Assembly (NCBI RefSeq): GCF_031450785.1
Contig: NZ_JARTWB010000001.1
Coordinates: 1,054,001 to 1,118,000, forward strand
Direction of reading: 5' to 3'
DNA from: Caballeronia sp. LZ062
GTDB taxonomy: Bacteria > Pseudomonadota > Gammaproteobacteria > Burkholderiales > Burkholderiaceae
DNA: 64,000 nt
Shown: in pieces, positions 8,514 through 47,832 of the stretch
Layout of the letters: the number at the start of each line of letters is the position of its first letter
How positions within the stretch are numbered: the first letter of the stretch is position 1
Notes under the pieces: generated by a model
Told to the model about the DNA's origin: nothing
What the model saw: only the letters and a program-made list of their open reading frames with translations
Databases searched by the model: none
Made by a program: the position numbers and the translations under genes

Positions 8514-10424
8514 ATGTACGACTTGCTGAAAACAATCGACGATCCGGCCGATCTGCGTGCCCTCGATCGACGCCAACTGCAGCCGCTTGCCGACGAACTG
8601 CGGGCCTACGTGCTCGACAGCGTGTCGCAGACGGGCGGCCATCTGTCGTCCAACCTCGGCACGGTCGAGCTGACGATCGCGCTGCATTATGTGTTCGATA
8701 CGCCGAACGACCGCATCGTCTGGGACGTCGGTCATCAGACGTATCCGCATAAGATCCTGACCGGACGCCGCGACCGGATGCCGACGCTGCGCCAGCTGAA
8801 CGGCATATCGGGCTTTCCGCGCCGTAGCGAATCCGAATACGACACCTTCGGCACTGCGCATTCGAGCACGTCGATTTCGGCCGCGCTCGGCATGGCCGTC
8901 GCGAACAAGCTGCAAGGCGACAACCGCTATTCCATCGCCGTGATCGGCGACGGCGCGATGACTGCCGGCATGGCGTTCGAGGCAATGAACAACGCGGGCG
9001 TTGCCGACGACGTGCCGCTGCTTGTCATCCTCAACGACAATGACATGTCGATTTCGCCGCCGGTCGGCGCGCTGAACCGCCATCTCGCGCGTCTGATGTC
9101 GGGCCGCTTCTATGCCGCCGCGCGCGCAGGCGTGGAGCGCGTGCTGCGCGCCGCGCCGCCGGTGCTCGACCTCGCGCGCAAACTCGAAGAGCACGCGAAG
9201 GGCATGATCGTGCCGGCCACGCTTTTCGAAGAGTTCGGCTTCAACTACATCGGCCCGATCGACGGGCACGATCTCGATTCGCTCATTCCGACGCTGCAGA
9301 ACATCAAGGAACTGCGCGGCCCGCAATTCCTGCACGTCGTCACGAAGAAAGGTCAGGGCTATAAGCTCGCGGAAGCCGACCCCGTGCTCTATCACGGTCC
9401 CGGCAAGTTCAATCCGGCCGAAGGCATCAAGCCCTCGACCGCACCGTCGAAGAAAACCTACACGCAGGTTTTCGGCGAATGGCTCTGCGACGCCGCCGCG
9501 CAGGATTCGCGCGTGGTCGGCATCACGCCGGCCATGCGCGAAGGCTCGGGCATGGTCGAGTTCGAGAAGCGCTTCCCGGACCGTTACTTCGATGTCGGCA
9601 TCGCCGAGCAGCACGCCGTCACGTTCGCGGGCGGGCTGGCTGCGGACGGCATGAAGCCGGTCGTCGCTATCTATTCGACATTCCTGCAACGCGCCTACGA
9701 CCAGTTGATTCACGACGTCGCGTTGCAGAATCTGCCGGTCGTTTTTGCAATCGACCGCGCGGGTCTCGTGGGCGCGGACGGCGCGACGCACGCGGGCAAT
9801 TACGACCTCGCGTTCCTGCGCTGCATCCCGAACATGACGGTGATGGCCGCCTCCGACGAGAACGAATGCCGCCAGATGCTCTACACGGCGCTTCAGCAGC
9901 CGAACCCGACGGCCGTGCGCTATCCGCGCGGCGCGGGCGCGGGCGTCGCGACCGTCAAGCAGATGACTGCGATTCCGCTCGGCAAGGGCGAAATCCGCCG
10001 TCAGTCGTCACAGAAGATGGGTTCCGGCAAGCGCATCGCAATTCTGGCGTTCGGCACGATGGTCGCGCCGTCGCTGGCCGCAGCCGAAGAACTCGACGCG
10101 ACCGTCGCGAACATGCGTTTCGTGAAGCCCGTCGACGCAGATTTGCTGCGCGAACTCGCCGCGACACACGACGCGCTCGTGACCGTCGAAGAAGGCACGA
10201 TCATGGGCGGCGCGGGTTCCGCGTGCGTCGAGGCGCTGCTCGCGAGCGGCGTCGTCAAGCCGGTGCTGCAGCTCGGCTTGCCGGACGTGTTCATCGACCA
10301 CGGCGATCCTGCCAAGCTGCTCGCGAGCGTCGGGCTCGATGCAGCCGGCATCGCGCGCTCCATTCGCGAGCGCTTCCTGTCCGCCGTCGAAGCGGCGGAC
10401 AAGCTGACCAAACGCGTCGCCTGA
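8514..10424 (+). CDS. dxs: 1-deoxy-D-xylulose-5-phosphate synthase
   Basis: 636 residues, close to the family's usual 620-640. It condenses pyruvate and glyceraldehyde-3-phosphate, the first step of the MEP isoprenoid pathway. TPP-binding residues are visible in the [18 protein letters not shown] region, and conserved blocks include [20 protein letters not shown] and [13 protein letters not shown]. The pyrimidine-domain glutamate lies in the last of these. The start at [11 protein letters not shown] matches the family; an in-frame ATG 26 codons upstream is unlikely. It follows ispA by 89 bases and ends before a strong terminator. Confidence 0.97.
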
Positions 10425-31051: not shown

Positions 31052-31322
31052 GAAACGCTTCTCCTCGTAGAGTGATGATCGATCGCTTGCAGGGATCGTC
31101 GTCCCTTGGCGCGAACAGGCGGTCACTCTACGTGGTGAGGCGGCGGGATGCCGTGAGAATGTGTAAGCAACGCTTACTTCGCGTTACTCAGCGGAGCGCC
31201 AAGCGCCGCAATGCCGTATCCGCCCATACATAACGCTGAATGAGAACAATAAAAATGTTTTGCTATCGGCGCACGTAATTCTGGCCCACCATGAAACGAT
31301 TTAATAAAGCATGGAGAGGGAC

Positions 31323-32774
31323 ATGGATAGCAAAGCAGAAGTGGAGCGCTACGAGTTGTTGATTGGCGGTGAATCCGTCGCGCCGAGCGGCGGCGAATAT
31401 TCGACGAACCTCGATCCGGCAACTGAAAACACGATTGCTTATGTCGCGCAGGGCACGTCGGCCGATGTGGATCGCGCGGTGCAGGCCGCGCGCGCCGCGT
31501 TGAAACCCTGGAATGCAATTCGCGCCGCCGAGCGGGGCCGCATTCTCATGCGGCTCGCGGACCTGCTGCGCGAGAATCAGGAAGAACTGGCGGCGCTGGA
31601 AAGCCTCGACGCCGGCAAGCCCGTTGCCGGCGTCCAGCGTCAGGACGTGCCCGCGGCCATCGATACACTCGCGTATTACGCCGGCTGGTGCGACAAGATC
31701 AACGGTCAGGTCGTGCCCGCGCGTCCCGACGCCCTCACGTACACGGTGCGCGAGCCGGTCGGCGTGGTCGGCGCCATTGTCCCGTGGAATTTCCCGCTGA
31801 TGATTGGCATGTGGAAAATCGCGCCCGCGCTGGCGTGCGGCTGCACCTTGATCGTCAAGCCCGCCGAAATCACGCCGCTTTCCGCGCTGATGGTCGGCCG
31901 GCTCGCGCTCGAGGCGGGCGTTCCGCCGGGCGTGCTGAATATCGTGACGGGCAAGGGCTCGGTGGTCGGGGATTCCATGGTCGCGCATCCGGGCATCGAC
32001 AAGATCACGTTCACGGGTTCGCCTTCGGTCGGGCGCGGCATTCTGCAGGGCGCGGCGGGCAACTTTAAGCGTGTGACGCTGGAATTGGGCGGGAAATCGG
32101 CCAACGTCATCTTCGCCGATGCAAACATCGACAGCGCCGTGCGCGCCGCGGCATCGGGCATCTTCTTCAACGCGGGACAGGTGTGCTCGGCGGGGTCGCG
32201 CGTGCTCGCGCAGCGCGCGGTCTATGACGAAGTAGTCGAACGCCTTTCGCTGCGCGCGCAAACGATCAAACTCGGCGATCCATCGGCACGCGAGACGAAC
32301 ATGGGCCCGCTCATCTCCGCGAAGCAGATGAAGACCGTGCTCGATTATGTGGATATCGGCAAGGGCGAGGGTGCGTCGCTGGTGACAGGCGGACGGCGCG
32401 CGGGCGAGCGCGGCTACTTCGTCGAGCCGACCGTGTTCGCGAACGTCCAGCACGAGATGCGCATCTCGCAGGAAGAAATCTTCGGGCCGGTGGCGAGCGT
32501 CATTCCTTTCGACGATGAAGCCGACGCACTGCGCATCGCCAACGGCACCGCTTACAGTCTCGCGGCGGGCGTCTGGAGCGCGGATATCGGCCGGGTGCAT
32601 CGCATGGCGGCCGAACTGAAGGCGGGTACCGTCTGGGTCAATACTTACGGCTATACGGACGTGCGGCTGCCGTGGGGCGGTTCCGGCGATTCGGGCTTTG
32701 GTCGCGAGCACGGCGACGTGGCCATCGAAAACTTCACGGAGCCGAAGGCGGTATGGGTGTCGTTGACGCCTTGA
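31323..32774 (+). CDS. NAD(P)-dependent aldehyde dehydrogenase
   Basis: 483 residues. It oxidises an aldehyde to the acid. PWNFPLMIGMWK is the cofactor-binding N-terminal block, LELGGKS contains the catalytic-base glutamate and NAGQVCSAGSR the catalytic cysteine. Similarity is to betaine/phenylacetaldehyde/4-aminobutyraldehyde-type enzymes, but substrate cannot be read. The ATG at 31323 has GGAGAGG at good spacing and is preferred to one 12 bases upstream. Its downstream neighbour is on the opposite strand, followed by a CbbR-like LysR gene. It may belong to the C2 metabolism of the following region but has no direct link. Confidence 0.92.
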   Translation: MDSKAEVERYELLIGGESVAPSGGEYSTNLDPATENTIAYVAQGTSADVDRAVQAARAALKPWNAIRAAERGRILMRLADLLRENQEELAALESLDAGKPVAGVQRQDVPAAIDTLAYYAGWCDKINGQVVPARPDALTYTVREPVGVVGAIVPWNFPLMIGMWKIAPALACGCTLIVKPAEITPLSALMVGRLALEAGVPPGVLNIVTGKGSVVGDSMVAHPGIDKITFTGSPSVGRGILQGAAGNFKRVTLELGGKSANVIFADANIDSAVRAAASGIFFNAGQVCSAGSRVLAQRAVYDEVVERLSLRAQTIKLGDPSARETNMGPLISAKQMKTVLDYVDIGKGEGASLVTGGRRAGERGYFVEPTVFANVQHEMRISQEEIFGPVASVIPFDDEADALRIANGTAYSLAAGVWSADIGRVHRMAAELKAGTVWVNTYGYTDVRLPWGGSGDSGFGREHGDVAIENFTEPKAVWVSLTP

Positions 32775-34661: not shown

Positions 34662-36014
34662 ATGGCAAGCGCAGACACGATGGTGTCCGGGCAGTCGCAC
34701 GGGCGTCATCACAACCGGTGGATCCAACTGGCGATCGGCATCGTATGCATGGGCCTCGTCGCCAATCTTCAATACGCCTGGACCCTTTTCGTTGTTCCGA
34801 TGGATGCCAAGCACCATTGGGGTCAAGCGGCGATTCAGACGGCATTCACCATCTTCATCGTCACCGAAACATGGCTCGTGCCGGTCGAAGGCTGGCTCGT
34901 CGACAAATTCGGACCGCGCCCGGTCGTGATCGGCGGATCGGTTTGCGCGGCCATCGGCTGGGTCATCGATGCGCACGCGACGAGTCTCGTCCACCTCTAC
35001 ATCGCGGCGGTGATTGCCGGCATCGGCGCGGGCTGTGTGTACGGCACGTGCGTCGGCACGGCGCTCAAGTGGTTCCCGGACAAGCGCGGACTCGCGGCGG
35101 GCCTGACGGCGGCGGGCTTCGGCGCGGGCGCGGCCGTCACGGTCATCCCGATCTCGAACATGATCCAGTCGTCCGGCTACGAGCACGCGTTCATGTTCTT
35201 CGGCATCTTCCAGGGCGTGTGCATTTTCCTGCTCGCGCTGATGCTGGTGCGGCCGAAGCCGCCGGTGAACGTCGCGCCGGCCAGGCGGATCGTGTCCACG
35301 AAAATCGACTACACGACCGGCCAGATGGTGCGCTCGCCGCTTTTCTGGGTGCTGTACCTCATGTTCGTGTTCGTGGCGGCGGGCGGCGTGATCGCCACGG
35401 CGCAGTTCGGGCCGATAGCGAAGGAATACGGCTTCGCGAAGATGCCGGTGAACCTGTTCGGCATCACGCTGCCGCTGCTGGCGATGACGCTTTCCATCGA
35501 CAACCTGTGCAACGGCTTCACGCGTCCGCTGTGCGGTTTCATTTCCGACCGGATCGGCCGCGAGAACACGATGTTCATCATCTTTCTAGGCGAAGGCGTG
35601 GCGCTGCTCGGGCTCATGCAGTTCGGCCATCATCCGTATCTCTTCATGCTGTTCGCCGCAATGACCTTCCTGTGCTGGGGCGAAATCTTCTCGATCTTCC
35701 CGGCGACCTGCGCGGACACGTTCGGCAGCAAGTACGCCGCCGCCAACGCGGGTACGCTGTACACCGCGAAGGGCACGGCGTCGATGCTGGTGCCGCTCGC
35801 GTCGGTGCTCGCGTCCATCGGTTCATGGAACGCGGTGTTCATCACGGCCGCGACGACGTCGATTGCCGCGGGCCTGTGCGCCAAGTTCGTGCTCGCGCCC
35901 ATGAGAAAGCGCTGGATCGAGAACACCGTTGCAGCGACCTCGGGCGATTCATCGGTCAACGCGTCCTTTCAGGCCGGCTGGCCCGAAGCGCCGGGCAAGA
36001 CGTCGGTCCAATAA
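34662..36014 (+). CDS. MFS oxalate/formate antiporter-type transporter (OxlT family)
   Basis: 450 residues, twelve membrane segments. The N-terminal half has LQYAWTLFVVPMDAKHHW, then EGWLVDKFGPRPVVIGG (first MFS loop), and the second half has GFISDRIGRENTMFI. The arrangement is that of oxalate:formate antiporters (OxlT), which bring in oxalate. Ribosome site GGAGACAGAC. The LysR gene 12 bases downstream is probably cotranscribed. Frc and a PanE-like reductase close by support oxalate as the substrate, though the OxlT family also carries other small acids. Confidence 0.82.
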   Translation: MASADTMVSGQSHGRHHNRWIQLAIGIVCMGLVANLQYAWTLFVVPMDAKHHWGQAAIQTAFTIFIVTETWLVPVEGWLVDKFGPRPVVIGGSVCAAIGWVIDAHATSLVHLYIAAVIAGIGAGCVYGTCVGTALKWFPDKRGLAAGLTAAGFGAGAAVTVIPISNMIQSSGYEHAFMFFGIFQGVCIFLLALMLVRPKPPVNVAPARRIVSTKIDYTTGQMVRSPLFWVLYLMFVFVAAGGVIATAQFGPIAKEYGFAKMPVNLFGITLPLLAMTLSIDNLCNGFTRPLCGFISDRIGRENTMFIIFLGEGVALLGLMQFGHHPYLFMLFAAMTFLCWGEIFSIFPATCADTFGSKYAAANAGTLYTAKGTASMLVPLASVLASIGSWNAVFITAATTSIAAGLCAKFVLAPMRKRWIENTVAATSGDSSVNASFQAGWPEAPGKTSVQ

Positions 36015-36026
36015 GGAAAGCAGCGC

Positions 36027-36971
36027 ATGCGCGTACGTACGGCCGCTCCCGCGCATGGGCCTTCGGTATCGCTGCATCAGTTGCGGCTCTTCGTGACGCT
36101 CGCGCGATATCGCAGCTTCACTCGCGCGGGCGACGAATTCGGCATCACGCAATCGGCGGTCAGCCGCAGCATTCGAGAGCTCGAAGAAGAAATCGCGCTA
36201 CGGCTCTTCGACCGGACCACGCGGCAGGTCACGCTGACTGATACGGGGCGCAAGCTGCTCGCGCGTATCGCGCCGCTCGTCGAGGAACTGGAAGCGACGC
36301 TGCGGCCTTCTCCGGACAATTTCACCGGACGAGGCGTCGTTCACATAGCGAGCAGTTGCGGTCTGACGGCGAGCGTCTTGCCGGCGCTGCTCGCGTCCTG
36401 CAAGGAGCGGCTGCCGGATGTGACGGTTGCGGTCATCGACCGCCCGCAGAATGCCGTGCTTCAGCTCGTGCGGTCGGGCGAGGCGGAAATCGGCATCGTG
36501 ATCGCGCCGGACACCTTGGACGAACTGGCCGCCGAACCGCTTTTCGCCGATGCTTTCGCGGCCGTCGTCGGCGCGTCGCATCCGCTGGCGCAGGCGTCGC
36601 GTCTGGACTGGCATCAGTTGCGCGCCACGCCGCTCCTTCTCCTCGACGACGATACGGGCAGCCTTGCCTCCGTCGAGGCCGCGCTCGCCCGCCACGCGGT
36701 AGCGGGCGCCGTGCGCCAGCGGCTGACGCAACCGGCAGCCGTGGCGCGCATGGCCGAGGCGGGTCTCGGCGTCGGCGTGCTGCCCATGCACACGCGGCTC
36801 GTTTGCAACAGCGCACGCACGCGCTTCATTCCCCTCACGCCCGAAATTGCTCGCACAGTCATGATCGTGCGTCGCCGAGGCCGCGCTTTGCGCGAGAGCG
36901 CGGCGAACGTCTGGTCGCACATCATCGCTTCGACGCATACTCTGAATACGTTGCAGGCCGTCGAGGCCTGA
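36027..36971 (+). CDS. LysR-family regulator in the oxalate locus
   Basis: 314 residues. HTH: SFTRAGDEFGITQSAVSRSIRELEE (residues about 31-55), followed by the LysR effector domain (GVVHIASSCGLTASVLPALL...). It begins 12 bases after the transporter stop with AAGGAA as ribosome site, so the two are probably one transcript. Its role may be control of oxalate uptake; the GntR protein at 38450 is the better candidate for the enzyme genes because of its site repeats. Confidence 0.88.
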   Translation: MRVRTAAPAHGPSVSLHQLRLFVTLARYRSFTRAGDEFGITQSAVSRSIRELEEEIALRLFDRTTRQVTLTDTGRKLLARIAPLVEELEATLRPSPDNFTGRGVVHIASSCGLTASVLPALLASCKERLPDVTVAVIDRPQNAVLQLVRSGEAEIGIVIAPDTLDELAAEPLFADAFAAVVGASHPLAQASRLDWHQLRATPLLLLDDDTGSLASVEAALARHAVAGAVRQRLTQPAAVARMAEAGLGVGVLPMHTRLVCNSARTRFIPLTPEIARTVMIVRRRGRALRESAANVWSHIIASTHTLNTLQAVEA

Positions 36972-37037
36972 CCTCTCACGAATCGGAAGGCGCCGCCGCA
37001 TACGGGTTTTCGCTCGTCTGCCGTCGCACGAATCGCC

Positions 37038-37066
37038 TTGTTCTGGCGGAACGTGGAATGTAGTAT
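37038..37066 (+). promoter_or_regulatory. Promoter of the panE-like gene
   Basis: TTGTTC at 37038-37043 and TAGTAT at 37061-37066 with a 17-base spacer. The operator-like repeat at 37065-37080 overlaps the end of the -10 and the expected start site. Confidence 0.55.
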
Positions 37067-37080
37067 CTTGTATATCAGAA
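37065..37080 (+). promoter_or_regulatory. Operator-like repeat, copy 1 (panE-like gene)
   Basis: ATCTTGTATATCAGAA. The identical 16 bases occur in inverted orientation at 38151-38166, and the core TTGTATATCA recurs at 41607-41616. It overlaps the promoter, fitting a repressor site. The GntR regulator at 38450 is the likely ligand. Confidence 0.65.
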
Positions 37081-37110
37081 GCTGCAAGCCTACGACTCTA
37101 GGAGACAACC

Positions 37111-38124
37111 ATGAAGATCTGCGTGTACGGCGCCGGCGCCATCGGCGGTTACATGGGCGCGCAACTCGCGCGCGCTGGAGCGGACGTCAGCTTCGTCGCG
37201 CGTGGGCCGCACCTCGCGGCGATGCAGGCGAACGGCGTGCGGCTACGGATCGACGGGGCAGAGCACACCGTCAAGGTACGTTGCACGAACAATCCCGCCG
37301 AACTCGGGCCGCAGGACTACGTGATCATCGCGCTGAAGGCGCATTCGGTGCCGGGCGTGGTCGATCTGATGCCGCCGCTGCTCGGACCCGACACGGCGAT
37401 CGTGACTGCGGTCAACGGCTTGCCTTACTGGTATTTCTATCAGCACGGCGGCGCGCTCGCCGGCACGACACTGCAAAGCATCGATCCGGGCGGCAGGCAG
37501 TGGAGCGTGTTCGGACCGGAGCGGGCTATCGGCTGCGTGCTGCTGCCCGCTGCGGAGATTGCGGAGCCGGGCGTGATCGAGCATCACTATGGCAAGAAGT
37601 TTCCCATCGGCGAGCCCAGCGGGGAGACCACGCCACGCCTTCAGGCGCTGCACGACATCATGGCCGCCGCCGACATGGAAGCGCCGATGCGCGACAACAT
37701 CCGCGACGAAATCTGGCTGAAGCTCTGGGGCAACCTCTGCTTCAACCCGATCAGCGCGCTCACGCACGCTACGCTCGATGTCCTCACGAGCGATCCTGGC
37801 ACCCGCGCGCTGTCGAAGGCGATGATGCTGGAGGCGAAGGCGATCGGCGACAAGCTCGGCGTCAACTTCCGGGTGGACGTCGAGCGGCGCATCAACGGCG
37901 CGGGCGCGGTGGGCGCGCACAAAACGTCGATGCTCATGGACTGCGAAGCGGGCCGGCCGATGGAAATCGATCCGCTCATCACGGTCGTGCAGGAAATCGG
38001 GCGCCTGGTTAATGTCGAGACGCCGATGATCGATGCCGTCCTTGCATTGATCAAGCTGCGCGAAGCCGTCAATCAGGGAACCGCCCGGGCCCAGCCGACG
38101 CCGCAGACGCAAAAAGCAGCCTAA
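37111..38124 (+). CDS. panE2: PanE-family 2-dehydropantoate reductase homologue, probable oxalyl-CoA reductase
   Basis: 337 residues. The N-terminal NADP fold reads YGAGAIGGYMGAQLARAGADV, and the catalytic lysine region is EIWLKLWGNLCFNP (Lys204 by count). PanE reduces ketopantoate, but in Methylobacterium extorquens the paralogue PanE2 reduces oxalyl-CoA to glyoxylate. The position here, next to frc, an OxlT transporter and shared regulator sites, makes the same role likely. That role is inferred from context; the protein could instead be an ordinary ketopantoate reductase. It has its own promoter overlapping an operator copy, and its downstream partner gene is on the same strand 114 bases away. 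Confidence 0.75.
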   Translation: MKICVYGAGAIGGYMGAQLARAGADVSFVARGPHLAAMQANGVRLRIDGAEHTVKVRCTNNPAELGPQDYVIIALKAHSVPGVVDLMPPLLGPDTAIVTAVNGLPYWYFYQHGGALAGTTLQSIDPGGRQWSVFGPERAIGCVLLPAAEIAEPGVIEHHYGKKFPIGEPSGETTPRLQALHDIMAAADMEAPMRDNIRDEIWLKLWGNLCFNPISALTHATLDVLTSDPGTRALSKAMMLEAKAIGDKLGVNFRVDVERRINGAGAVGAHKTSMLMDCEAGRPMEIDPLITVVQEIGRLVNVETPMIDAVLALIKLREAVNQGTARAQPTPQTQKAA

Positions 38125-38150
38125 ACTGCATCCAACGGCACCCGCGTTGT

Positions 38151-38166
38151 TTCTGATATACAAGAT
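38151..38166 (-). promoter_or_regulatory. Operator-like repeat, copy 2 (38239/GntR genes)
   Basis: TTCTGATATACAAGAT on the plus strand is the exact reverse complement of copy 1. It lies 26 bases upstream of the -10 promoter at 38177-38205. Confidence 0.65.
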
Positions 38167-38176
38167 GCAAAATATG

Positions 38177-38205
38177 TTGCGTCCTGCTGCGTTGCACCAT
38201 ATACT
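38177..38205 (+). promoter_or_regulatory. Promoter of the 38239-GntR operon
   Basis: TTGCGT and TATACT separated by 17 bases. The operator copy lies just upstream of the -35 element, which would fit autoregulation. Confidence 0.55.
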
Positions 38206-38238
38206 GAAGGCTCTTGAGTGATTTGACCGGAGCCTGAA

Positions 38239-38460
38239 ATGAGCATCGCCTTGTTGGTTGTCGTTGGAATCGCGCTGGTTGCCGTGGGTGTGGGCGTTAC
38301 GTTTATGATTGCGTCGGCGGTGCCGCAGGACATGCTGCAACGCGCACAGGAACACGGTCGGTTTGCCGGACTCGCGGCGGACGACCAGAATGGCGGTTCG
38401 GGCAAGCGCGTCGTCGCGGACCGTCCGCAAATGGGAAACCAAGCCATCAATGCCATCTGA
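38239..38460 (+). CDS. Small single-membrane-segment protein
   Basis: 73 residues. The N-terminus is one hydrophobic segment, LLVVVGIALVAVGVGVTFMI, followed by a polar tail. GGAGC precedes the ATG. Its last 11 bases overlap the start of the GntR gene, so the two are translationally coupled. It has no recognised family. It could be an anchor or a partner of the regulator, or a small transporter-like component of the oxalate locus. Confidence 0.65.
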   Translation: MSIALLVVVGIALVAVGVGVTFMIASAVPQDMLQRAQEHGRFAGLAADDQNGGSGKRVVADRPQMGNQAINAI

Positions 38461-39181
38461 TACTCAATCCGTAGACAGGCCGGAAGTTCGCCCGAGCGGG
38501 CTGGCGCTGTCGCTCGAGCCGATTAACGCCACGGTCTCGCTGCGCGATCAGGCGTACGCCAAACTGCGGCAGGCCATCGCGGAGGCGGACATCTACCGTT
38601 CGCGGGAAGAAATCCGTCTGGACGAAAAAGAGCTGACCGAAGCGCTGGGCGTTTCGCGAACGCCTATCCGGGAGGCCATGACGCTGCTGGAGCAGGAAGG
38701 CTTTCTGCGCACGGTGCCGCGTCGCGGGGTGTATATCCTGCGCAAGACCAAGCGCGAGATCGTCGAGATGATCCACATGTGGGCGGCGCTCGAAAGCATG
38801 GCGGCGCGCCTTGCCACGCAGCGCGCGACGGACGAGGAAATCGCGCAGCTTCGTCACATGTTCGACAATTTCCGCGACAGCACGCCGGCCGAGCATATCG
38901 ACGAGTACTCGGAAGCGAATATCGCGTTCCATCAGGCGATCGTGCGGCTGTCGAAGTCGCAAATCATCTTCGACACGATCAAGAACATCTTCGTGCACGT
39001 GCGCGCCATCCGGAAGATGACGATCTCGCAGAGCGACCGCGCGTCGCGCTCGATCGTCGATCACATGCGCATCATCGAGGCGTTGGAGAAGCGGGACACC
39101 GAGCTCGTCGAGCGGCTCGTGAGGCAGCACTCGCTGGATCTGGCGGCGTTCGTCGAGGCAAACTGCGATTTCCTGGATTGA
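38450..39181 (+). CDS. GntR-family (FCD-type) transcriptional regulator, probable local oxalate regulator
   Basis: 243 residues. Winged HTH: ELTEALGVSRTPIREAMTLLEQEGFLRTVPRRGVYI (about residues 60-95), then a C-terminal FCD helical domain with metal-binding-type residues (EANIAFHQAIVRLSK, HVRAIRK, IVDHMRIIEAL). FCD GntR regulators often respond to small carboxylic acids. The start overlaps the end of the 38239 gene. It is the only GntR protein in the window and its gene lies between operator-like copies at 37065, 38151, 41441 and 41607, so it is proposed as the regulator of all four promoters. Confidence 0.9.
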   Translation: MPSDTQSVDRPEVRPSGLALSLEPINATVSLRDQAYAKLRQAIAEADIYRSREEIRLDEKELTEALGVSRTPIREAMTLLEQEGFLRTVPRRGVYILRKTKREIVEMIHMWAALESMAARLATQRATDEEIAQLRHMFDNFRDSTPAEHIDEYSEANIAFHQAIVRLSKSQIIFDTIKNIFVHVRAIRKMTISQSDRASRSIVDHMRIIEALEKRDTELVERLVRQHSLDLAAFVEANCDFLD

Positions 39182-39210
39182 GCTTCGAGCAGCGCGAATA
39201 GTCACAAGCA

Positions 39211-39247
39211 AAAGGCCGCACGGTAATCGCCGTGCGGCCTTTTTTTG
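39211..39247. terminator. Bidirectional terminator between GntR and sucD
   Basis: Stem AAAGGCCGCACGG / CCGTGCGGCCTTT with a six-base loop and T runs on the plus strand and A-rich flank on the other. It separates the convergent transcripts. Confidence 0.88.
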
Positions 39248-39262
39248 CGCCCGCAGAACCCG

Positions 39263-40135
39263 CTAGCGCATCGCCCGCAGCATCGTTTCGCCGAGCGCCG
39301 CGGGCGAATCCGCGACATGGATGCCCGCCGATCTCATCGCGTCGATCTTCGCGCTCGCCGTGCCCGAGCCGCCCGAGACAATCGCGCCCGCGTGCCCCAT
39401 GCGGCGTCCCGGCGGCGCGCTCGTACCGGCGATGAAGCCGACCACCGGCTTTTTCGTTTTCGCGTCCTTCAGGAACTGCGCCGCTTCTTCCTCCGCCGAT
39501 CCGCCGATCTCGCCGATCATGATGATGCCTTCAGTCGCGTCGTCGGCGAGGAAAAGCGAGAGGCAGTCGATGAAATTGGTCCCGTTCACCGGATCGCCGC
39601 CGATGCCGATGCACGTCGTCTGGCCGAGCCCGGCCGCCGTCGTCTGCGCGACGGCTTCATACGTCAGCGTACCCGAGCGCGACACCACGCCGATCTTCCC
39701 CGGCTGATGAATATGCCCCGGCATGATGCCGATCTTGCACGCGCCCGGCGTAATGACGCCCGGACAGTTCGGCCCGACGAGCCGGCTCGGCGAACCCGCC
39801 AGTGCGCGCTTCACGCGCACCATGTCGAGCACCGGGATTCCTTCGGTGATGCAGACGATCAGCGGCACTTCGGCATCGATGGCTTCGAGGATCGCATCGG
39901 CGGCGAAGGGTGGCGGCACGTAGATCACGGAAGCGTCCGCGCCGGTTTTGGCGACCGCGTCGGCGACGGTGTCGAAGACCGGCAGATCGAGATGCGTCGT
40001 GCCGCCCTTGCCGGGCGTGACGCCGCCGACCATTCGCGTGCCGTATGCAATCGCCTGTTCCGAGTGAAAGGTGCCTTGCGCGCCGGTGAAGCCCTGGCAG
40101 ATCACCTTCGTGTGCTTGTCGATCAAGACGCTCAT
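39263..40135 (-). CDS. sucD: Succinate-CoA ligase-type alpha subunit
   Basis: 290 residues, the normal SucD size. CoA-binding N-terminus [16 protein letters not shown], and the phosphorylated histidine in [14 protein letters not shown]. Sequence is SucD-like rather than malate-CoA ligase (MtkB)-like, but differs from housekeeping SucD around the substrate region. AGGAAG precedes the ATG. It follows sucC by 11 bases. In the oxalate locus it may make a CoA thioester (succinyl-CoA or another) from ATP to feed the CoA-transferase. It is probably a second, specialised copy, since housekeeping sucCD usually lies elsewhere. Confidence 0.88.
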
Positions 40136-40146
40136 GGGGCTTCCTC

Positions 40147-41337
40147 TCAATGGTGGACGGCGCTGACGATCTTGTCGGCGGCATCGGCGAGATTGTCGGC
40201 GGAAATGATGGTGAGTCCGGACGCGCGCAGAATGTCGCGTCCTGCATCGACGTTGGTGCCGGCCAGACGCACCACGAGCGGCACGCGCAGATCGACTTCG
40301 CGCGCCGCCGCGACGACGCCTTCTGCGATCACGTCGCAGCGCATGATGCCGCCGAATATGTTGACCAGAATGCCTTGCACCTTCGGATCGCGCAGGATCA
40401 GCTTGAAGGCGGTCGCCACCCGTTCCTGCGTCGCGCCGCCGCCCACGTCGAGGAAGTTCGCCGGCTCGCCGCCGTAGAGCTTGATGATGTCCATGGTGGC
40501 CATCGCGAGGCCCGCGCCGTTCACCATGCAGCCGATGCTGCCGTCCAGCTTCACGTAGTTGAGGCCGTGCTTCGCGGCTTCGATTTCGGCGGGATCTTCT
40601 TCGTCTTCGTCGCGCAGGGCTTCCACGTCCGGACGACGGTACAGCGCGTTGTCGTCGAAATTGAGCTTCGCGTCGAGCGCCATGACGTCGCCGGAGCCGG
40701 TCACGACGAGCGGATTCACTTCGACCACGGACGCATCGAGCTCGACGAACGCCTGATACAGCGCGGCGATGAACTCCGCCGCCGCTTTCACCTGATTGCC
40801 GGTGAGCCCAAGCCCGAACCCGATCTTCCGAGTGTGAAAGGGCTGCAGGCCGGTCGCCGGATCGATCGCGACCTTGAGAATCTTCTCGGGCGTGCGATGC
40901 GCGACTTCCTCGATCTCCATGCCGCCTTCCGTCGACGCCATGATCGTGATGCGCGACGTCGCCCGGTCGACGAGCATCCCGAGATACAGCTCGCGTGCGA
41001 TATCGCAGCCTTCCTCGATATAAAGACGCTTCACCTCCTTGCCGGCCGGTCCGGTCTGCTTCGTGACGAGCACCGACGACAGCATCTTCTGAGCGTTCTC
41101 GCGCACGTCTTCCACCGACTTCACCACGCGCACGCCGCCTTTGGCCTCCGGATCGTTGGCGAAGCGGCCCGCGCCGCGCCCGCCCGCATGAATCTGCGAC
41201 TTCACGACCCACACCGGGCCGCCGAGCGCGCTGGCCGCATCCGCGGCTTCCTGCGCCGTGAAAGCGACGCGGCCATGCGGCACCGCGACGCCGTACTTTC
41301 GCAGTAGCGCCTTCGCTTGATATTCGTGGATGTTCAT
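40147..41337 (-). CDS. sucC: Succinate-CoA ligase-type beta subunit
   Basis: 396 residues. ATP-grasp N-terminal half ([15 protein letters not shown]), and the Rossmann-like half with [14 protein letters not shown] and [17 protein letters not shown] precedes the ATG. It is the first gene of the pair, read away from the TPP-frc operon. The promoter region (41338-41683) holds two operator-like copies. Subunit assignment is by family; whether the acid is succinate, malate, oxalate or another cannot be read from sequence. An ATP-grasp CoA ligase in this locus fits the need to regenerate CoA esters. Confidence 0.88.
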
Positions 41338-41440
41338 TCCGTCTCCTGTTGCGACCAGGCGTGCGGCCGGAGCCGGCCGGTGCAGTCGCTTGTCAGCACG
41401 TCTCATGGGATGGCGCAGACTGAAGACGCCGCTGCGCGTA

Positions 41441-41460
41441 TTAGATATATCACATATCAA
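41441..41460 (-). promoter_or_regulatory. Operator-like repeat, copy 4 (sucCD)
   Basis: TTAGATATATCACATATCAA: contains TATATCACA as in copy 3 but is less perfect than copies 1 and 2. It lies about 105 bases before the sucC start. Confidence 0.5.
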
Positions 41461-41603
41461 GGTGTGCGCGGAATCGTTACTTGATGCTTCAGTGCAGCAT
41501 ATCGAGCCGCTTTAATCCCGTCGCAACAGGCGACGGAGCGATGATGCGCCGCGTCACAGGGTTTGTTCCAATCAGATGTTCGTTGACTAATACTGTGTGT
41601 GGA

Positions 41604-41619
41604 ATATTGTATATCACAG
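41604..41619 (+). promoter_or_regulatory. Operator-like repeat, copy 3 (TPP-frc operon)
   Basis: ATATTGTATATCACAG. The core TTGTATATCA is identical to copies 1 and 2. It overlaps the -10 element of the TTGACT promoter, a repressing position. Confidence 0.65.
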
Positions 41620-41683
41620 CAACCGGACGAACAGCGCGACGTTCGGCGAGAGAGAAATCACCCATTCGAGGAGGAGACAACAC

Positions 41684-43450
41684 ATGTCCGAAGTCGTCAG
41701 CAGCCGTCCGGAAGTCGCTCCAGCCACCACCACCGCCGATGACACGCTCAAGCAAAAGACGCGCGGCGCGGGCGTCGTTTCGGGCGGCCATCTCGTCGCG
41801 CGAGCGCTCAAGAACGAAGGCGTCGATACCATCTTCACGCTGTGCGGCGGTCATATCATCGATATCTACGACGGCTGCGTCGATGAAGGCATCCGGATCA
41901 TCGACGTGCGCCACGAACAGGTCGCCGCCCACGCCGCCGACGGCTACGCGCGTCAAACCGGCAAGCTCGGCTGCGTGGTGACGACCGCCGGCCCCGGCTG
42001 CACGAACGCGGTCACGGGCGTCGCCACGGCGTTTCGCTCGGAAAGCCCGATCATCCATATCGGCGGGCAGGGCGCACTCACGCAGCACAAGATGGGCTCG
42101 CTGCAAGACCTTCCGCACGTCGACATGATGTCGCCCATCACCAAGTTCGCGGCGACCGTGCCGAGCACGGAGCGCGTCGCCGACATCGTGTCGATGGCCG
42201 CCCGCGAAGCCTTCAACGGCGCGCCCGGCCCGGCGTATCTGGAAATCCCGCGCGACGTGCTCGACCGTGAAATCGACGTGAGCAAGGCCGTGATTCCGCA
42301 ACCCGGGCGCTATCGTGCATCGACAAAATCGGTCGGTGATCCGAAGGACATCGAAAAGCTCGCCGATCTGCTTGTGAACTCCGAGCGCCCGGCGATCCTG
42401 TACGGCCAGCAAGTGTGGACGGCGCGCGGCCATGAAGAAGCGATCGCGCTGCTGCGCGGCCTCGATATTCCCGGCTACTTCAACGGCGCGAGCCGCGGCC
42501 TCTTGCCGCCGGGCGATCCGCATCACTTCGACCGCACGCGCTCGCAGGCTTTCGCGAAGGCGGACCTGATCGTGATCGTCGGCACGCCGTTCGATTTCCG
42601 GATGGGTTACGGCAAGCGCATCAGCAAGGAACTGAAGCTGGTGCAGATCGACATGGATTACCGTACGGTCGGCAAGAATCGCGATATCGACCTCGGTCTT
42701 GTCGGCGATCCGGGCGCGATTCTCGGCGCGGTGCTGCAAGCCGCGAGCGGCCGGTTGAAGAACGACAAGCGCCAGTCGCGCCAGGCCTGGATGCGCGAAC
42801 TCGCGGCGGCGGAAGAAACCGCGACCGCCAAGCTCATGCCGCTCTTCACGTCCGATGCCAGCCCGATTCATCCGTATCGCGTAGCCCACGAGATCAATCA
42901 GTTCCTGTCCGACGACACCATTTATATCGGCGATGGCGGCGACGTCGTCACGATCTCGGCGCAAGCCGTGCGTCCGCGCCGCCCCGGCCAGTGGATGGAC
43001 CCCGGCGCGCTCGGCTCGCTCGGCGTCGGCACGGGATTCGCCATCGCGGCGGGCCTCGCCAATCCGGAGAAGGAAGTGCTCTGCTACTACGGCGACGGCG
43101 CGTTCTCCATGACCTCGTTCGACATGGAAACGGCCAACCGCTTCGGCGTGCCGTATATCGCGGTGATCGGCAACAACTCGGCGATGAACCAGATTCGCTA
43201 CGGCCAGCTCGCGAAATACGGCGAAGAGCGCGGCAACGTCGGCAATCTGCTCTCGGACGTGCCGTATGGCCGCTTCGCTGAGATGCTCGGCGGCTACGGC
43301 GAGGAAGTCTACGAGGCGTCGAAAATCGCGGGCGCGTTGCAGCGCGCGCGCGAGTCCATCGCGAAAACCGGCAAGAGCGCGGTCATCAATATTTGGGTCG
43401 ATCCTACGGTGTACGCGCCTGGCACGATGGCCCAGACGATGTACAAATAA
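41684..43450 (+). CDS. TPP-dependent enzyme resembling acetolactate synthase, in the place of oxalyl-CoA decarboxylase
   Basis: 588 residues. The catalytic glutamate lies in [18 protein letters not shown] (Glu78); the TPP-binding motif begins CYYGDGAF (GDG at 470) and ends at GNNSAMNQ (about 497). It has a ThDP pyrimidine domain, a central domain and a PP domain. Oxalyl-CoA decarboxylases differ in several blocks: here [18 protein letters not shown] is acetolactate-synthase-like where Oxc has SAPGFLNG. The neighbouring frc gene suggests it may decarboxylate oxalyl-CoA or act as a 2-hydroxyacyl-CoA lyase, or condense glyoxylate. Function is inferred. GGAGGAG precedes the ATG. About 30 N-terminal residues before the fold are low-complexity. 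Confidence 0.75.
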
Positions 43451-43481
43451 AGAACGCGATCGAAGACACAGGGAGACAGCC

Positions 43482-44738
43482 ATGAACACCTCGGGCAAGG
43501 CACTGGATGGCGTTCGCATCCTCGATTTCACGCACGTTCAATCGGGTCCGACCTGCACGCAGTTGCTGGCGTGGTTCGGCGCGGACGTTATCAAGGTAGA
43601 GCGCGCCGGCGCAGGCGACATCACGCGGGAGCAATTGCGCGATATCCCCGACGCGGACAGCCTTTACTTCACGATGCTCAACCACAACAAGCGGTCGATC
43701 ACCATCGACACGAAGAATCCCGAGGGCAAGAAAGTGCTCGAAACGCTCGTCAAGAAGTGCGACGTGCTGGTCGAGAACTTCGCGCCGGGCGCGCTCGACC
43801 GCATGGGCTTCTCGTGGGAGCGCATCCAGGAACTGAACCCGGCGATGATCGTGGCGTCGGTCAAGGGCTTCGGGCCGGGGCCGTACGAAGACTGCAAGGT
43901 CTACGAGAACGTCGCGCAGTGCGCGGGCGGCGCGGCATCGACCACGGGTTTCGACGACGGTCCGCCGACCGTCACCGGCGCGCAGATCGGCGATTCGGGC
44001 ACGGGGCTGCACCTCGCGCTCGGCATTGTCACGGCCCTGTATCAGCGCAACCGCACCGGACGCGGGCAGAAAGTGCTCGCGGCCATGCAGGACGGCGTGC
44101 TCAATCTGTGCCGCGTGAAATTGCGCGACCAGCAGCGCCTCGAACGCACCGGCGTGATGAAAGAGTACCCGCAGTATCCGAACGGCAAGTTCGGCGAAGC
44201 GGTGCCGCGCGCAGGCAACGCATCCGGCGGCGGCCAGCCGGGCTGGATTCTCAAGTGCAAGGGCTGGGAAACCGACCCGAACGCGTACATCTACTTCATC
44301 ACGCAGGCGCCGGTGTGGGGCGAAATCTGCAAGGTCATCGGCAAGGAAGAGTGGATCGAGCATCCGGACTACAAGACGCCCAATGCGCGCCTGCCGCGGT
44401 TGAAAGAAATCTTCGCGGAAATCGAGCGCTGGACCATGTCGAAAACCAAGTTTCAGGCCATGGAAATCCTGAACAAGCACGACATTCCGTGCGGCCCGAT
44501 TCTCTCGATGAAGGAGATTGCCGAAGAACCGTCGCTCAGAAAGACCGGCACGGTCGTGGAAGTGGACCATCCGGTGCGCGGCAAATACCTGACGGTCGGC
44601 AACCCGATCAAGCTCTCGGACAGCCCGACGGAAGTCGTGCGCTCGCCGCTGCTCGGCGAGCATACCGATGAAGTCATGGCCGAACTCGGCTACACGCAGG
44701 ACCAGATCGCCACGCTGAAGAGCCTCGGCGCGATCTGA
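43482..44738 (+). CDS. frc: Formyl-CoA:oxalate CoA-transferase
   Basis: 418 residues of the class III CoA-transferase family. It moves CoA from formyl-CoA (or another donor) to oxalate. Conserved blocks match the Oxalobacter enzyme: [32 protein letters not shown], and [12 protein letters not shown], where Asp171 corresponds to the nucleophile Asp169 of the family; the glycine-rich loop [12 protein letters not shown] is intact. GGGAGA precedes the ATG. It follows the TPP gene by 31 bases in the same operon. This gene is the strongest evidence that the region is about oxalate. Confidence 0.93.
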
Positions 44739-44793
44739 ACCCTTACTCCCGATGCGGACGAAACTCGTCCTCTAATAAACGGAGACACGCCAA

Positions 44794-47001
44794 ATGAACA
44801 GCACGGTCGTCCAGGAACGCAGCGAAGCAGTCCAGTCTTTCCCGCCCGCATCGAATGTCGTGCCGTTGCACGCAGCGGACGCAAAGCGCCGTGTCGCGGA
44901 GATCTTCGAGCGCGTGAAGGCCGAGGGCCGCACGTCGCTGACTGCGCCGGAAGGCAAGCTCGTCTGCGACGCCTACGGTATCTCGGTGCCGCAGGAAGGC
45001 GTGGCGACCAGCGCGGACGACGCCGCGAAGCTCGCGTCCTTCATCGGCTTCCCGGTGGTGCTGAAGATCGTCTCGCCGGAGATTCTGCACAAGACCGAGG
45101 CGGGCGGCGTGCTCGTCGGCGTGAAGAACGAAGCCGACGTGAAGGCAGGCTACGCGACGATCATCGAAAATGCGAAGAAGTACGATGCGAACGCGACCAT
45201 CGTGGGCGTGCAGGTGCAGCAGATGGTCGGCGCGGGACAGGAAGTGATCATCGGCGCGGTCACGGACCCGTCGTTCGGCAAGCTGATCGCGTTCGGGCTC
45301 GGCGGCGTGCTTGTCGAAGTGCTGAAGGACGTGACGTTTCGCTTAGCTCCGGTGACGCGCGAAGAAGCCGAGTCGATGCTCGACGGCATTCAGGCCGCCG
45401 ATGTGCTGCGCGGCGTGCGTGGCGCGGAAGCCGTCGACCGCGATGCACTGGTGACGCTGATCGAGCGCGTGTCGCGCCTCGTCGACGACTTCCCGCAAAT
45501 CTCCGAGATGGATCTGAATCCGGTCTTCGCGAGCCCGAACGGAGCGGTGGCGGCGGACGTGCGCATCGTGATGGACTTCGAGCCGGCCGAGCCGCGCTAT
45601 CGCCCGACGCAGGAGCAGATCGTCACGCAGATGAACCGCATCATGAAGCCGGATGCCGTCGCGGTGATCGGCGCGTCGAACGAGGACGGCAAGATCGGCA
45701 ACTCGGTCATGAAAAACCTGATCAACGGCGGCTACCAGGGGACCATCTATCCGATTCACCCGAAAGCCGACGAAATCATGGGCCGCAAGGCGTACAAGAG
45801 CGTGAAAGACGTGCCGGGCGTGATCGACGTGGCCGTGTTCGCGATTCCCGCGAAGTTCGTCGCGCAGGCGCTCGTCGAAGTGGGCGAGAAGCAGATTCCC
45901 GGCGCGGTGCTGATTCCGTCCGGCTTCGCCGAAACGGGCAATCAGGAGGGGCAGGAAGAGCTGGTGCGGATTGCGCGTCAGTACGATATCCGCATGATGG
46001 GACCGAACATCTACGGCTTCTATTACACGCCGAAGAATCTGTGCGCGACGTTCTGCACGCCCTACGACGTGAAGGGCAAGGCGGCGCTCTCGTCGCAATC
46101 GGGCGGCATCGGCATGGCGATCATCGGCTTTTCGCGCTCGGCGAAGATGGGCGTTTCGGCTATCGTCGGCCTCGGCAACAAGAGCGATATCGACGAGGAC
46201 GATCTGCTCACGTTCTTCGAGCAGGACGACAACACGGAAATCATCGCGCAGCACTGCGAAGATCTGAAGGACGGCCGATCCTTCGCCGAAGCCGCGCGGC
46301 GCGTGTCGAAGAAAAAGCCGGTCGTCGTGCTGAAGGCGGGCAGAACGAGCCTCGGCGCGCGCGCGGCGAGTTCGCACACCGGCGCGCTCGCGGGCAACGA
46401 CAAGATCTACGAGGACGTGTTCGCGCAATGCGGCGTGATCCGCGCCCGGTCGCTGCGCGACTTGCTCGAGTTCGCGCGCGGCATTCCGAAGCTGCCGACG
46501 CCGAAGGGTGAAAACACCGTCATCATCACGGGCGCGGGCGGATCGGGCGTGCTGCTCTCGGACGCCTGCGTGGACAACGGCCTTTCGCTGATGACCATGC
46601 CCGACGATCTCGACGCCGCGTTCCGCAAGTTCATTCCGCCGTTCGGCGCGGCGGGCAATCCGGTCGACATCACCGGCGGCGAGCCGCCGACCACGTACAA
46701 GAACACGATCAAGCTCGGACTCGAAGACGACCGCATCCATTCGATCATTCTCGGTTATTGGCACACGATCATCACGCCGCCGATGGTCTTCGCCAAACTC
46801 GTGATCGAAGTGAAGGAGGAGATGAAGGCGCGCGGCATCGAAAAGCCGATCGTGGCGTCGCTCGCCGGTGACGTGCAGGTGGAGGAGGCCGCCGAGTATC
46901 TGTACGAGCACGGCGTGCCGGCTTACGCGTATTCGACCGAGTTGCCCGTCGCGGTGCTCGGCGCGAAATACAAGTGGGCGCGCGGCGCGGGCCTGATCTG
47001 A
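44794..47001 (+). CDS. ADP-forming acyl-CoA synthetase (acetate-CoA ligase family)
   Basis: 735 residues in one chain. The order is an ATP-grasp domain (residues about 40-250; GFPVVLKIVSPEILHKTEAGG) followed by CoA-binding (VAVIGASNEDGKIGNSVMKN), ligase and catalytic-histidine domains (ASSHTGALAGNDKIYEDVFAQCGV). Other members have these reversed. It makes an acyl-CoA from an acid, CoA and ATP, releasing ADP. Position directly after frc (55 bases, GGAGA ribosome site) suggests an acid of this pathway, such as oxalate, formate or glycolate, but this is inference. Confidence 0.88.
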   Translation: MNSTVVQERSEAVQSFPPASNVVPLHAADAKRRVAEIFERVKAEGRTSLTAPEGKLVCDAYGISVPQEGVATSADDAAKLASFIGFPVVLKIVSPEILHKTEAGGVLVGVKNEADVKAGYATIIENAKKYDANATIVGVQVQQMVGAGQEVIIGAVTDPSFGKLIAFGLGGVLVEVLKDVTFRLAPVTREEAESMLDGIQAADVLRGVRGAEAVDRDALVTLIERVSRLVDDFPQISEMDLNPVFASPNGAVAADVRIVMDFEPAEPRYRPTQEQIVTQMNRIMKPDAVAVIGASNEDGKIGNSVMKNLINGGYQGTIYPIHPKADEIMGRKAYKSVKDVPGVIDVAVFAIPAKFVAQALVEVGEKQIPGAVLIPSGFAETGNQEGQEELVRIARQYDIRMMGPNIYGFYYTPKNLCATFCTPYDVKGKAALSSQSGGIGMAIIGFSRSAKMGVSAIVGLGNKSDIDEDDLLTFFEQDDNTEIIAQHCEDLKDGRSFAEAARRVSKKKPVVVLKAGRTSLGARAASSHTGALAGNDKIYEDVFAQCGVIRARSLRDLLEFARGIPKLPTPKGENTVIITGAGGSGVLLSDACVDNGLSLMTMPDDLDAAFRKFIPPFGAAGNPVDITGGEPPTTYKNTIKLGLEDDRIHSIILGYWHTIITPPMVFAKLVIEVKEEMKARGIEKPIVASLAGDVQVEEAAEYLYEHGVPAYAYSTELPVAVLGAKYKWARGAGLI

Positions 47002-47052
47002 TCCAAGAATACGGCGCGGGCCGCGGCTCGCGCCAACTAGAAAGGGATTTCC

Positions 47053-47832
47053 GTGACCACCTGGATACGTTTTCGCGATGCCGACGGGCATATCGGCTTT
47101 GGCACGCTCGACGAGCGCTCGGGCCGCGTCGTGCAGCACGACGGCGCGCTCTTCGAGCAGCCGCGCCCGACCGACATCTCCTTTGCCGTGGACGACCTTA
47201 CTCTGCTCGCGCCCTGCGAGCCGAGCAAGGTCATCGCGCTGTGGAACAACTACTACGCGCTCTCGCAGAAGCTCGACAAGGCGCCGCCGCAGCATCCGCT
47301 CTTTCTGATCAAGCCGCCGATGTCGGTCATCGGGCCGAACGAGTCGATTCGCCGGCCGAAGAATTACCACGGCAAGATTGCCTACGAGGGCGAACTGGGT
47401 GTCGTGATCGGCAAGAAGGTGTCGTGCGCGTCGGTGGAAGAAGCCGAGGACGCGATCTTCGGCTACACGTGCGTGAACGACGTCACTGCCATCGAGCTGC
47501 TGCAGGAAGATCCCAACTTCGCGCAATGGTGCCGCTCGAAGGGCTTCGACACGTTCACGTGCCTCGGGCCGGGAATCGTCAGCGGTTTCGACTGGCGCAG
47601 CGCGAATGTCGTCACGACCGTCGACGGAGTGGAGCGCCAGAACTACCCGCTCGACGACATGATTTTCTCGCCCGCCGAGCAGGTCAGCCTGCTTTCGCAC
47701 GACATGACGCTCGCGCCCGGCGACGTGATCGCGTGTGGAACGTCCGTCGGCGTCGGGTCGATCAAGGACGGCGCGCGTGTCGATGTGTCAATCGGAGGGA
47801 TCGGCACGTTGTCGAATGTGCTGGCGGCGTAG
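47053..47832 (+). CDS. Fumarylacetoacetate hydrolase family protein
   Basis: 259 residues from a GTG with AAAGGGA. The FAH-fold metal motif is YEGELGVVIGKK (Glu-x-Glu) with the acidic ligand further on in GYTCVNDVTAIELL. The family includes acylpyruvases, oxaloacetate decarboxylases and 2-oxo-pent-4-enoate hydratases. At the end of the TPP-frc-ligase operon it may act on an oxo-acid related to oxalate. The first 50 residues are shorter than in classical FAH. No Zn or Mg is visible beyond the motif. Confidence 0.85.
   Translation: MTTWIRFRDADGHIGFGTLDERSGRVVQHDGALFEQPRPTDISFAVDDLTLLAPCEPSKVIALWNNYYALSQKLDKAPPQHPLFLIKPPMSVIGPNESIRRPKNYHGKIAYEGELGVVIGKKVSCASVEEAEDAIFGYTCVNDVTAIELLQEDPNFAQWCRSKGFDTFTCLGPGIVSGFDWRSANVVTTVDGVERQNYPLDDMIFSPAEQVSLLSHDMTLAPGDVIACGTSVGVGSIKDGARVDVSIGGIGTLSNVLAA

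Follow-up and report, generated by a model that had tools for sequence, protein, structure and literature searches.

A ThDP enzyme beside Frc as a candidate non-orthologous oxalyl-CoA decarboxylase in an oxalate locus of Caballeronia sp. LZ062

Gene content of the oxalate locus

We analysed a stretch of 64,000 nucleotides of Caballeronia sp. LZ062 (contig NZ_JARTWB010000001.1, positions 1,054,001 to 1,118,000), here called the window, in which the interval 34662..47832 carries genes for the use of oxalate. Our main subject is a gene in this interval for a thiamine diphosphate (ThDP) dependent enzyme, which directly precedes frc and may encode a second oxalyl-coenzyme A (CoA) decarboxylase, distinct from the classical enzyme Oxc. 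The genes of the locus are listed below, with positions counted from the first letter of the window.

34662..36014, + strand: OxlT, oxalate/formate antiporter (TIGR04259, 633 bits, cut-off 335)
36027..36971, + strand: LysR-type regulator (PF00126 and PF03466 above gathering cut-off)
37111..38124, + strand: PanE/ApbA-type reductase, candidate oxalyl-CoA reductase (NF005089, 514 bits, cut-off 223)
38309..39181, + strand: open reading frame of a GntR/FCD regulator, probable start further in at about 38450 (PF00392, PF07729)
About 39263..40135, - strand: SucD-like CoA ligase alpha subunit (NF004230, 466 bits, cut-off 336; probable start, from the profile match)
About 40147..41337, - strand: SucC-like CoA ligase beta subunit (NF001913, 587 bits, cut-off 370; probable start, from the profile match)
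41684..43450, alternative start 41675, + strand: ThDP enzyme, proposed non-orthologous oxalyl-CoA decarboxylase (three TPP domains; below every NCBIfam cut-off)
43482..44738, + strand: Frc, formyl-CoA:oxalate CoA-transferase (TIGR03253, 734.5 bits, cut-off 504.2)
44794..47001, + strand: ADP-forming acyl-CoA synthetase, candidate oxalate or formate CoA ligase (PF13549, PF13607, PF19045)
47053..47832, + strand: FAA-hydrolase-family protein (FAH), recurrent in the locus (PF01557, 190.6 bits)

The ThDP enzyme has 588 amino acids and the stop of its gene lies 31 bp 5' of frc, which is the usual site of Oxc. The original prediction for this interval was silent on the gene, although it lies inside. 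It had proposed an oxalate locus with an OxlT-type transporter, a close match to Frc including the GDSGTG motif, a PanE paralogue and two CoA ligases, namely SucCD and an ADP-forming synthetase, and all of these were found where it had placed them. Frc aligns end to end with Escherichia coli YfdW (618 bits) and scores about 550 bits against the Oxalobacter formigenes Frc of the PDB. Both GDSGTG and a glycine-rich loop align with YfdW; we take the Asp of the motif to be the nucleophile and the loop to be catalytic as well.

Search for classical Oxc and for hidden oxalate routes

The genome of the window (5.06 Mb in 3 contigs, 98.9% complete) was searched for classical Oxc. Twelve candidates were scored, with 8 ThDP matches, and the highest TIGR03254 score was that of the window's own ThDP enzyme (232 bits against a cut-off of 739.4). 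With 0 of the 8 ThDP matches above cut-off, no classical Oxc was found in this genome, in line with the original prediction, which had found none in the locus. Elsewhere the genome encodes an IlvB-like and a Gcl-like enzyme (L002 and L003, respectively). As a hidden route we also considered bicupin oxalate decarboxylase (TIGR03404), oxalate oxidase and the like not being searched for. Of 10 genomes, 9 gave no match at E 0.001 and the tenth, G072, gave a partial one of 20 bits.

According to Kost et al. 2014 (PMC3886118), Burkholderia phenoliruptrix LMG22037, B. tuberum LMG21444 and B. graminis LMG18924 can grow with calcium oxalate as their only source of carbon. A 2026 ISME J paper (PMC13184526) scored growth for Paraburkholderia tuberum LMG21444, P. 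graminis C4D1M (synonym LMG 18924) and Caballeronia grimmiae LMG 27580 (synonym R27). The latter paper treats frc and oxc as the traditional genome-mining markers of oxalate users and states that some oxalate growers 'lacked oxc'; its passages on this point name no replacement for oxc and do not tie those strains to the four growers considered here. Our loci L040, L045, L037 and L012 come from genomes under the names P. phenoliruptrix LMG 22037, P. tuberum LMG 21444, P. graminis C4D1M and C. grimmiae R27, respectively. All four carry the ThDP-Frc pair and an OxlT above cut-off; in their genomes no Oxc exceeded the cut-off, and the bicupin oxalate decarboxylase model matched nothing. The ThDP enzyme of P. 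graminis C4D1M is 86% identical to that of the window. In the three Paraburkholderia growers the Frc of the ThDP pair is the only Frc above cut-off, and the same is true of C. grimmiae if G108 is that genome, as the coordinates suggest.

Relationships and residues of the ThDP enzyme

The ThDP enzyme reached the cut-off of no NCBIfam model. Its top score was obtained with the acetolactate synthase model PRK05858 (448 bits, cut-off 587); it scored lower with the actinobacterial 2-hydroxyacyl-CoA lyase model NF058623 (357 bits, cut-off 600) and the Oxc models PRK09259 (247 bits, cut-off 557) and TIGR03254 (232 bits, as above). Among solved structures compared by sequence, the 2-hydroxyacyl-CoA lyase AcHACL was nearest (274 bits), then HACL/S (265) and O. 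formigenes Oxc (173). The nearest named loci among the matches listed are from Caballeronia, with 96-100% identity in the ThDP enzyme.

We then used a tree of 24 rows, made of the ThDP family, Oxc, one HACL, AcHACL and the other ThDP enzymes of the genome. The 9 ThDP-family rows form one branch that is separate from the 7 Oxc rows (100/100) and joined to AcHACL at 93/91, and Oxc and HACL make up the opposite half of the clade (100/100). These groups together form one clade against the other ThDP enzymes (99/95). Because those outer branches are long, the split from Oxc is firmer than the placement next to AcHACL.

Residues were compared over 41 family members having 76-98% identity to the window copy. 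Invariant in all 41 are the ThDP glutamate Glu78, Gly-Gly-His57, Thr101, Leu140-Gln141 and Arg286, the last corresponding to the CoA arginine R273 of AcHACL; most of the C-terminal tail is invariant as well. So are Gln503 and Arg505, and these two, Arg286 and the tail are candidates for contacts with CoA and the substrate carboxylate. The acid/base Glu493 of AcHACL is Ile504 in 41/41. Its loss would fit decarboxylation, since no catalyst for a substrate hydroxyl is then needed, a point that we draw from PMC8760513. The segment after the NN motif and an Ala at the position of a second CoA arginine resemble the IlvB-like and Gcl-like enzymes of the genome. The Val that Gcl has at the ThDP-activating Glu is found in the Gcl-like L003 and not in the family (Glu78 in 41/41). 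A predicted structure (mean pLDDT, the per-residue confidence score, 77.7; 41 close sequences) was nearest to HACL/HICL enzymes and also matched Oxc, the CoA site not being resolved in it. Score, tree and active-site residues all set the ThDP enzyme apart from classical Oxc.

The sources label the gene acetolactate synthase or sulfoacetaldehyde acetyltransferase. We set aside these labels, and that of Gcl, on account of the scores below cut-off, the place of the enzyme in the CoA-dependent group of the tree, and the genome's own IlvB-like and Gcl-like genes elsewhere.

Distribution of ThDP enzyme and Oxc among Frc genomes

In a sample of the family, Frc above cut-off was found in 73 of 150 genomes, of which 54 had Oxc only, 14 the ThDP enzyme only, 3 both and 2 neither. 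A second sample covered 297 genomes of the alphaproteobacterial order around Labrys okinawensis. Oxc was found in 60 of these (one without Frc above cut-off), the ThDP enzyme in 24, and both in none. The 87 Frc genomes of this order accordingly comprise 59 with Oxc only, 24 with the ThDP enzyme only and 4 with neither; 5 of the 24 had entered the sample by way of their ThDP loci, and without them the counts for both, ThDP only, Oxc only and neither are 0/19/59/4. Two genomes were counted as having Oxc, namely G145, where the gene is split over contig ends, and G306 of the order sample, where a partial Oxc falls just below cut-off. Within Frc genomes the mutual exclusion of the two enzymes is strong (Fisher p = 2e-10 for the family and 1e-17 for the order, uncorrected for relatedness).

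Eleven genomes of 1.0-1.6 Mb (G196, G247, G284, G316, G343, G369, G391, G409, G446, G463 and G478) have a ThDP enzyme of 65-68% identity with Frc adjoining, and are possibly small-genome oxalate users. One of the eleven ThDP genes has an internal TAA.

Conserved neighbourhood of ThDP and Oxc loci

Relatives of the ThDP enzyme in named genomes number at least 80, and we used the best 80 matches listed. In 74 of these, Frc follows on the same strand at no more than 700 bp, and 5 end at a contig edge; in the remaining one, L032, the genes are adjacent by layout, but overlapping matches hid the pair from the script. A classical Oxc was found in none of these loci. Companion genes were tallied where both flanks reach at least 7 kb, which left 47 loci (the other 33 have shorter flanks): GntR in 42, OxlT in 37, FAH in 35, ADP-forming synthetase in 27, PanE in 24, and SucC and SucD in 20 each.

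For comparison, we fetched from the family sample 42 of the 58 Oxc places (57 above cut-off and G145), 15 of the 18 ThDP places and 3 loci with neither. The 42 classical Oxc loci contain much the same companions, with GntR in 33, OxlT in 28, FAH in 26, PanE in 23, and a second Frc, of the window type or of the type in Cupriavidus ThDP loci, in 26. At least three of these five are present in 25/42 Oxc loci and 12/15 ThDP loci. The two genes thus alternate in one locus frame. Locus L116 has the order OxlT-LysR-PanE-GntR-Oxc-Frc1-Frc-FAH, which is that of the window with Oxc-Frc1 where the ThDP gene sits. L120 reads GntR-ThDP-Frc1, Frc1 being the type that adjoins Oxc elsewhere, and L106 and L125 have Oxc plus a SucDC-Frc-synthetase block from which the ThDP gene is absent. 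On a tree of the GntR regulators (98 distinct rows out of 104; a quick method with SH-aLRT branch support only) the Oxc/ThDP label changes 9 times, compared to a mean of 26.8 for shuffled labels, and at least 4 times by starred branches. The ThDP enzyme and Oxc have thus been swapped more than once behind related regulators.

The Frc partner also varies. In L018, L019, L021, L022, L024 and L028 (Cupriavidus and kin) the ThDP enzyme is 86-88% identical to that of the window and the adjoining Frc only 61-64%; counting L120, the ThDP gene adjoins at least three Frc types. In L119 (G061, same genus as the window) the ThDP and synthetase genes are gone from between SucC and Frc (8600-9140), and all that is left of the ThDP gene is short C-terminal remnants ahead of Frc. 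The locus still has OxlT, PanE, SucCD, Frc and FAH, and there is no Oxc above cut-off.

PanE branch and CoA ligases

The original prediction regarded the PanE-type protein as an oxalyl-CoA reductase, and it is indeed a good candidate. PanE2 of Methylobacterium extorquens is reportedly an oxalyl-CoA reductase. The gene also occurs in oxc loci of presumed Cupriavidus genomes (72-76% identity). In Cupriavidus necator, ApbA2, encoded near frc-oxc and 51% identical to PanE2, is required for normal growth on oxalate (PMC7486775), so that a PanE in an oxalate locus is a known arrangement.

As to the ligases, the ADP-forming synthetase reached no NCBIfam equivalog cut-off in the profile search, and SucC scored 556 bits with the malate-CoA ligase model, below its cut-off of 604. 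Because of this closeness and its presence in 20/47 ThDP loci, the SucDC-like pair (39263-41337, - strand) may be a CoA ligase for oxalate or another acid. The ligases may serve to prime the Frc cycle or to feed the reductive branch; they are not universal in ThDP loci (synthetase 27/47, SucCD 20/47). Outside the interval, an aldehyde dehydrogenase gene (31311-32774, + strand) scores below all listed NCBIfam cut-offs; in 12/47 ThDP loci a relative with about 80% identity to it lies near OxlT.

Proposed pathway and alternatives

We propose, with a probability of roughly 0.75, that the ThDP enzyme is a non-orthologous, separately evolved second oxalyl-CoA decarboxylase that renews formyl-CoA, with PanE as an assimilatory side branch. 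Oxalate would be imported by OxlT, and Frc would convert formyl-CoA and oxalate to oxalyl-CoA and formate. The ThDP enzyme would then split oxalyl-CoA to formyl-CoA and CO2, renewing the CoA donor of Frc. Part of the oxalyl-CoA would be reduced by PanE to glyoxylate for biosynthesis, the Gcl-like gene lying elsewhere in the genome. Since each oxalyl-CoA so reduced removes a CoA thioester from the Frc cycle, an ATP-driven synthetase would be useful, and the ADP-forming synthetase, the SucCD-like ligase or both may restore it. Frc needs a CoA donor, classically formyl-CoA, and where Oxc is absent the ThDP enzyme beside Frc is the obvious source.

Several observations weigh against this proposal. 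The decarboxylase activity is a prediction from sequence and context. Across the 41 members, Leu, Gln and Asn stand where O. formigenes Oxc has the active-site residues Tyr120, Glu121 and Tyr483; at its Ser553, a poorly aligned column, the family has Ala or Asn. The CoA arginine Arg417 of AcHACL is Ala426 in 41/41. Neither the catalytic residues of Oxc nor those of AcHACL are kept, so that residues alone do not single out one activity. Over all genomes, instead of Frc genomes, the exclusion is weak for the family (p = 0.11) and moderate for the order (p = 0.006), and both counts and p values ignore the relatedness of genomes. Both enzymes are present in 3/17 ThDP genomes of the family sample, and a classical Oxc was found in 7 of the 44 named ThDP genomes searched (34 further loci of the listed matches were left out of this search); the two are therefore not always alternatives. 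Six genomes have Frc with neither enzyme, namely G048 and G061 of the family, the former with Frc beginning 0.2 kb from a contig start, and G264, G335, G385 and G419 of the order. Finally, Oxc absence in the four growers was judged on assemblies of unstated completeness.

The original prediction inferred a pathway that has no decarboxylase and in which something other than formyl-CoA has to supply Frc with CoA. This inference is probably wrong, as an enzyme of the CoA-dependent decarboxylase/lyase group occupies the Oxc position, and other genomes, published oxalate growers among them, have it in place of Oxc. The claim of a pathway unlike the Frc/Oxc pair stands as regards the missing classical Oxc; the decarboxylase-free scheme probably does not, and the PanE branch is the known arrangement described above. 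We consider it decidedly unlikely that Frc or the ligases activate oxalate and that reduction by PanE is then its sole fate, the glyoxylate serving both assimilation and oxidation. PanE and the two CoA ligases in the locus fit such a scheme, as does L119 with its OxlT, PanE, SucCD and Frc beside mere remnants of the ThDP gene and no Oxc above cut-off. However, it gives the ThDP gene beside Frc no role, PanE is present in just 24/47 ThDP loci, and a C. necator frc-oxc deletion mutant does not grow on oxalate although ApbA2 remains (PMC7486775). An oxc mutant of Burkholderia phytofirmans PsJN likewise does not grow on oxalate (PMC3886118).

Other activities of the ThDP enzyme can be imagined. 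It is unlikely to be a 2-hydroxyacyl-CoA lyase/synthase, interconverting 2-hydroxyacyl-CoA with formyl-CoA and an aldehyde in a locus whose substrate is a 2-hydroxy acid, either alone or along with oxalate. AcHACL is its nearest solved relative (274 bits, joined at 93/91) and shares His57, Thr101, Leu140-Gln141 and one CoA arginine, yet the acid/base Glu493 is Ile in 41/41, and the gene stands in the frame of oxalate loci with OxlT and Frc and is carried by oxalate growers that have no Oxc. Carboligation of the glyoxylate made by PanE, in the manner of acetolactate synthase or glyoxylate carboligase, would agree with the best NCBIfam model (PRK05858, below its cut-off), the source labels, and the IlvB-like and Gcl-like segment and Ala. 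We hold this to be highly improbable, as L002 and L003 are already encoded elsewhere, the Val of Gcl is not present, and the enzyme groups with CoA-dependent enzymes and accompanies Frc rather than PanE. It also seems very unlikely that the formyl-CoA carbanion formed from oxalyl-CoA is joined to glyoxylate of the PanE branch, giving tartronyl-CoA, instead of or besides being protonated; the acetolactate synthase-like segment and the missing Oxc residues are compatible with it.

If the proposed decarboxylase is confirmed, it would give a named gene for how soil and plant bacteria that lack the textbook oxc grow on oxalate. The gene now goes under the names acetolactate synthase or sulfoacetaldehyde acetyltransferase, and the capacity for oxalate breakdown would then have been under-counted, on the scale of the Frc genomes with the ThDP enzyme in place of Oxc (14/73 in the family and 24/87 in the order). 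Oxalyl-CoA decarboxylation would also have arisen a second time, and formyl-CoA chemistry would gain a new scaffold. A search of the open-access literature, mostly at listing level, found no report of such a ThDP oxalyl-CoA decarboxylase. A candidate for a non-orthologous decarboxylase in the Oxc position is more interesting than the idea of a decarboxylase-free pathway.

Comparison with known systems

In the classical Frc/Oxc systems of O. formigenes and of B. phytofirmans PsJN (oxlT-oxc-frc), too, OxlT occurs with a genuine Frc that has a ThDP enzyme directly beside it; the window differs in that its ThDP enzyme is not Oxc on any of the three counts given above. The frc-oxc locus of C. necator with ApbA2 similarly has a PanE-type reductase as an assimilatory branch (PMC7486775), with an annotated oxc where the window has the ThDP enzyme instead. 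Compared to AcHACL, the ThDP enzyme shares Gly-Gly-His, Thr, Leu-Gln and one CoA arginine, whereas it has neither Glu493 nor Arg417 and sits in an oxalate locus. Although acetolactate synthase PRK05858 gives the top NCBIfam score (448, below 587), the genomic frame in the window is of the oxalate-locus type. The PanE of the window and M. extorquens PanE2 belong to the same protein family, and it is by family only that we liken them.

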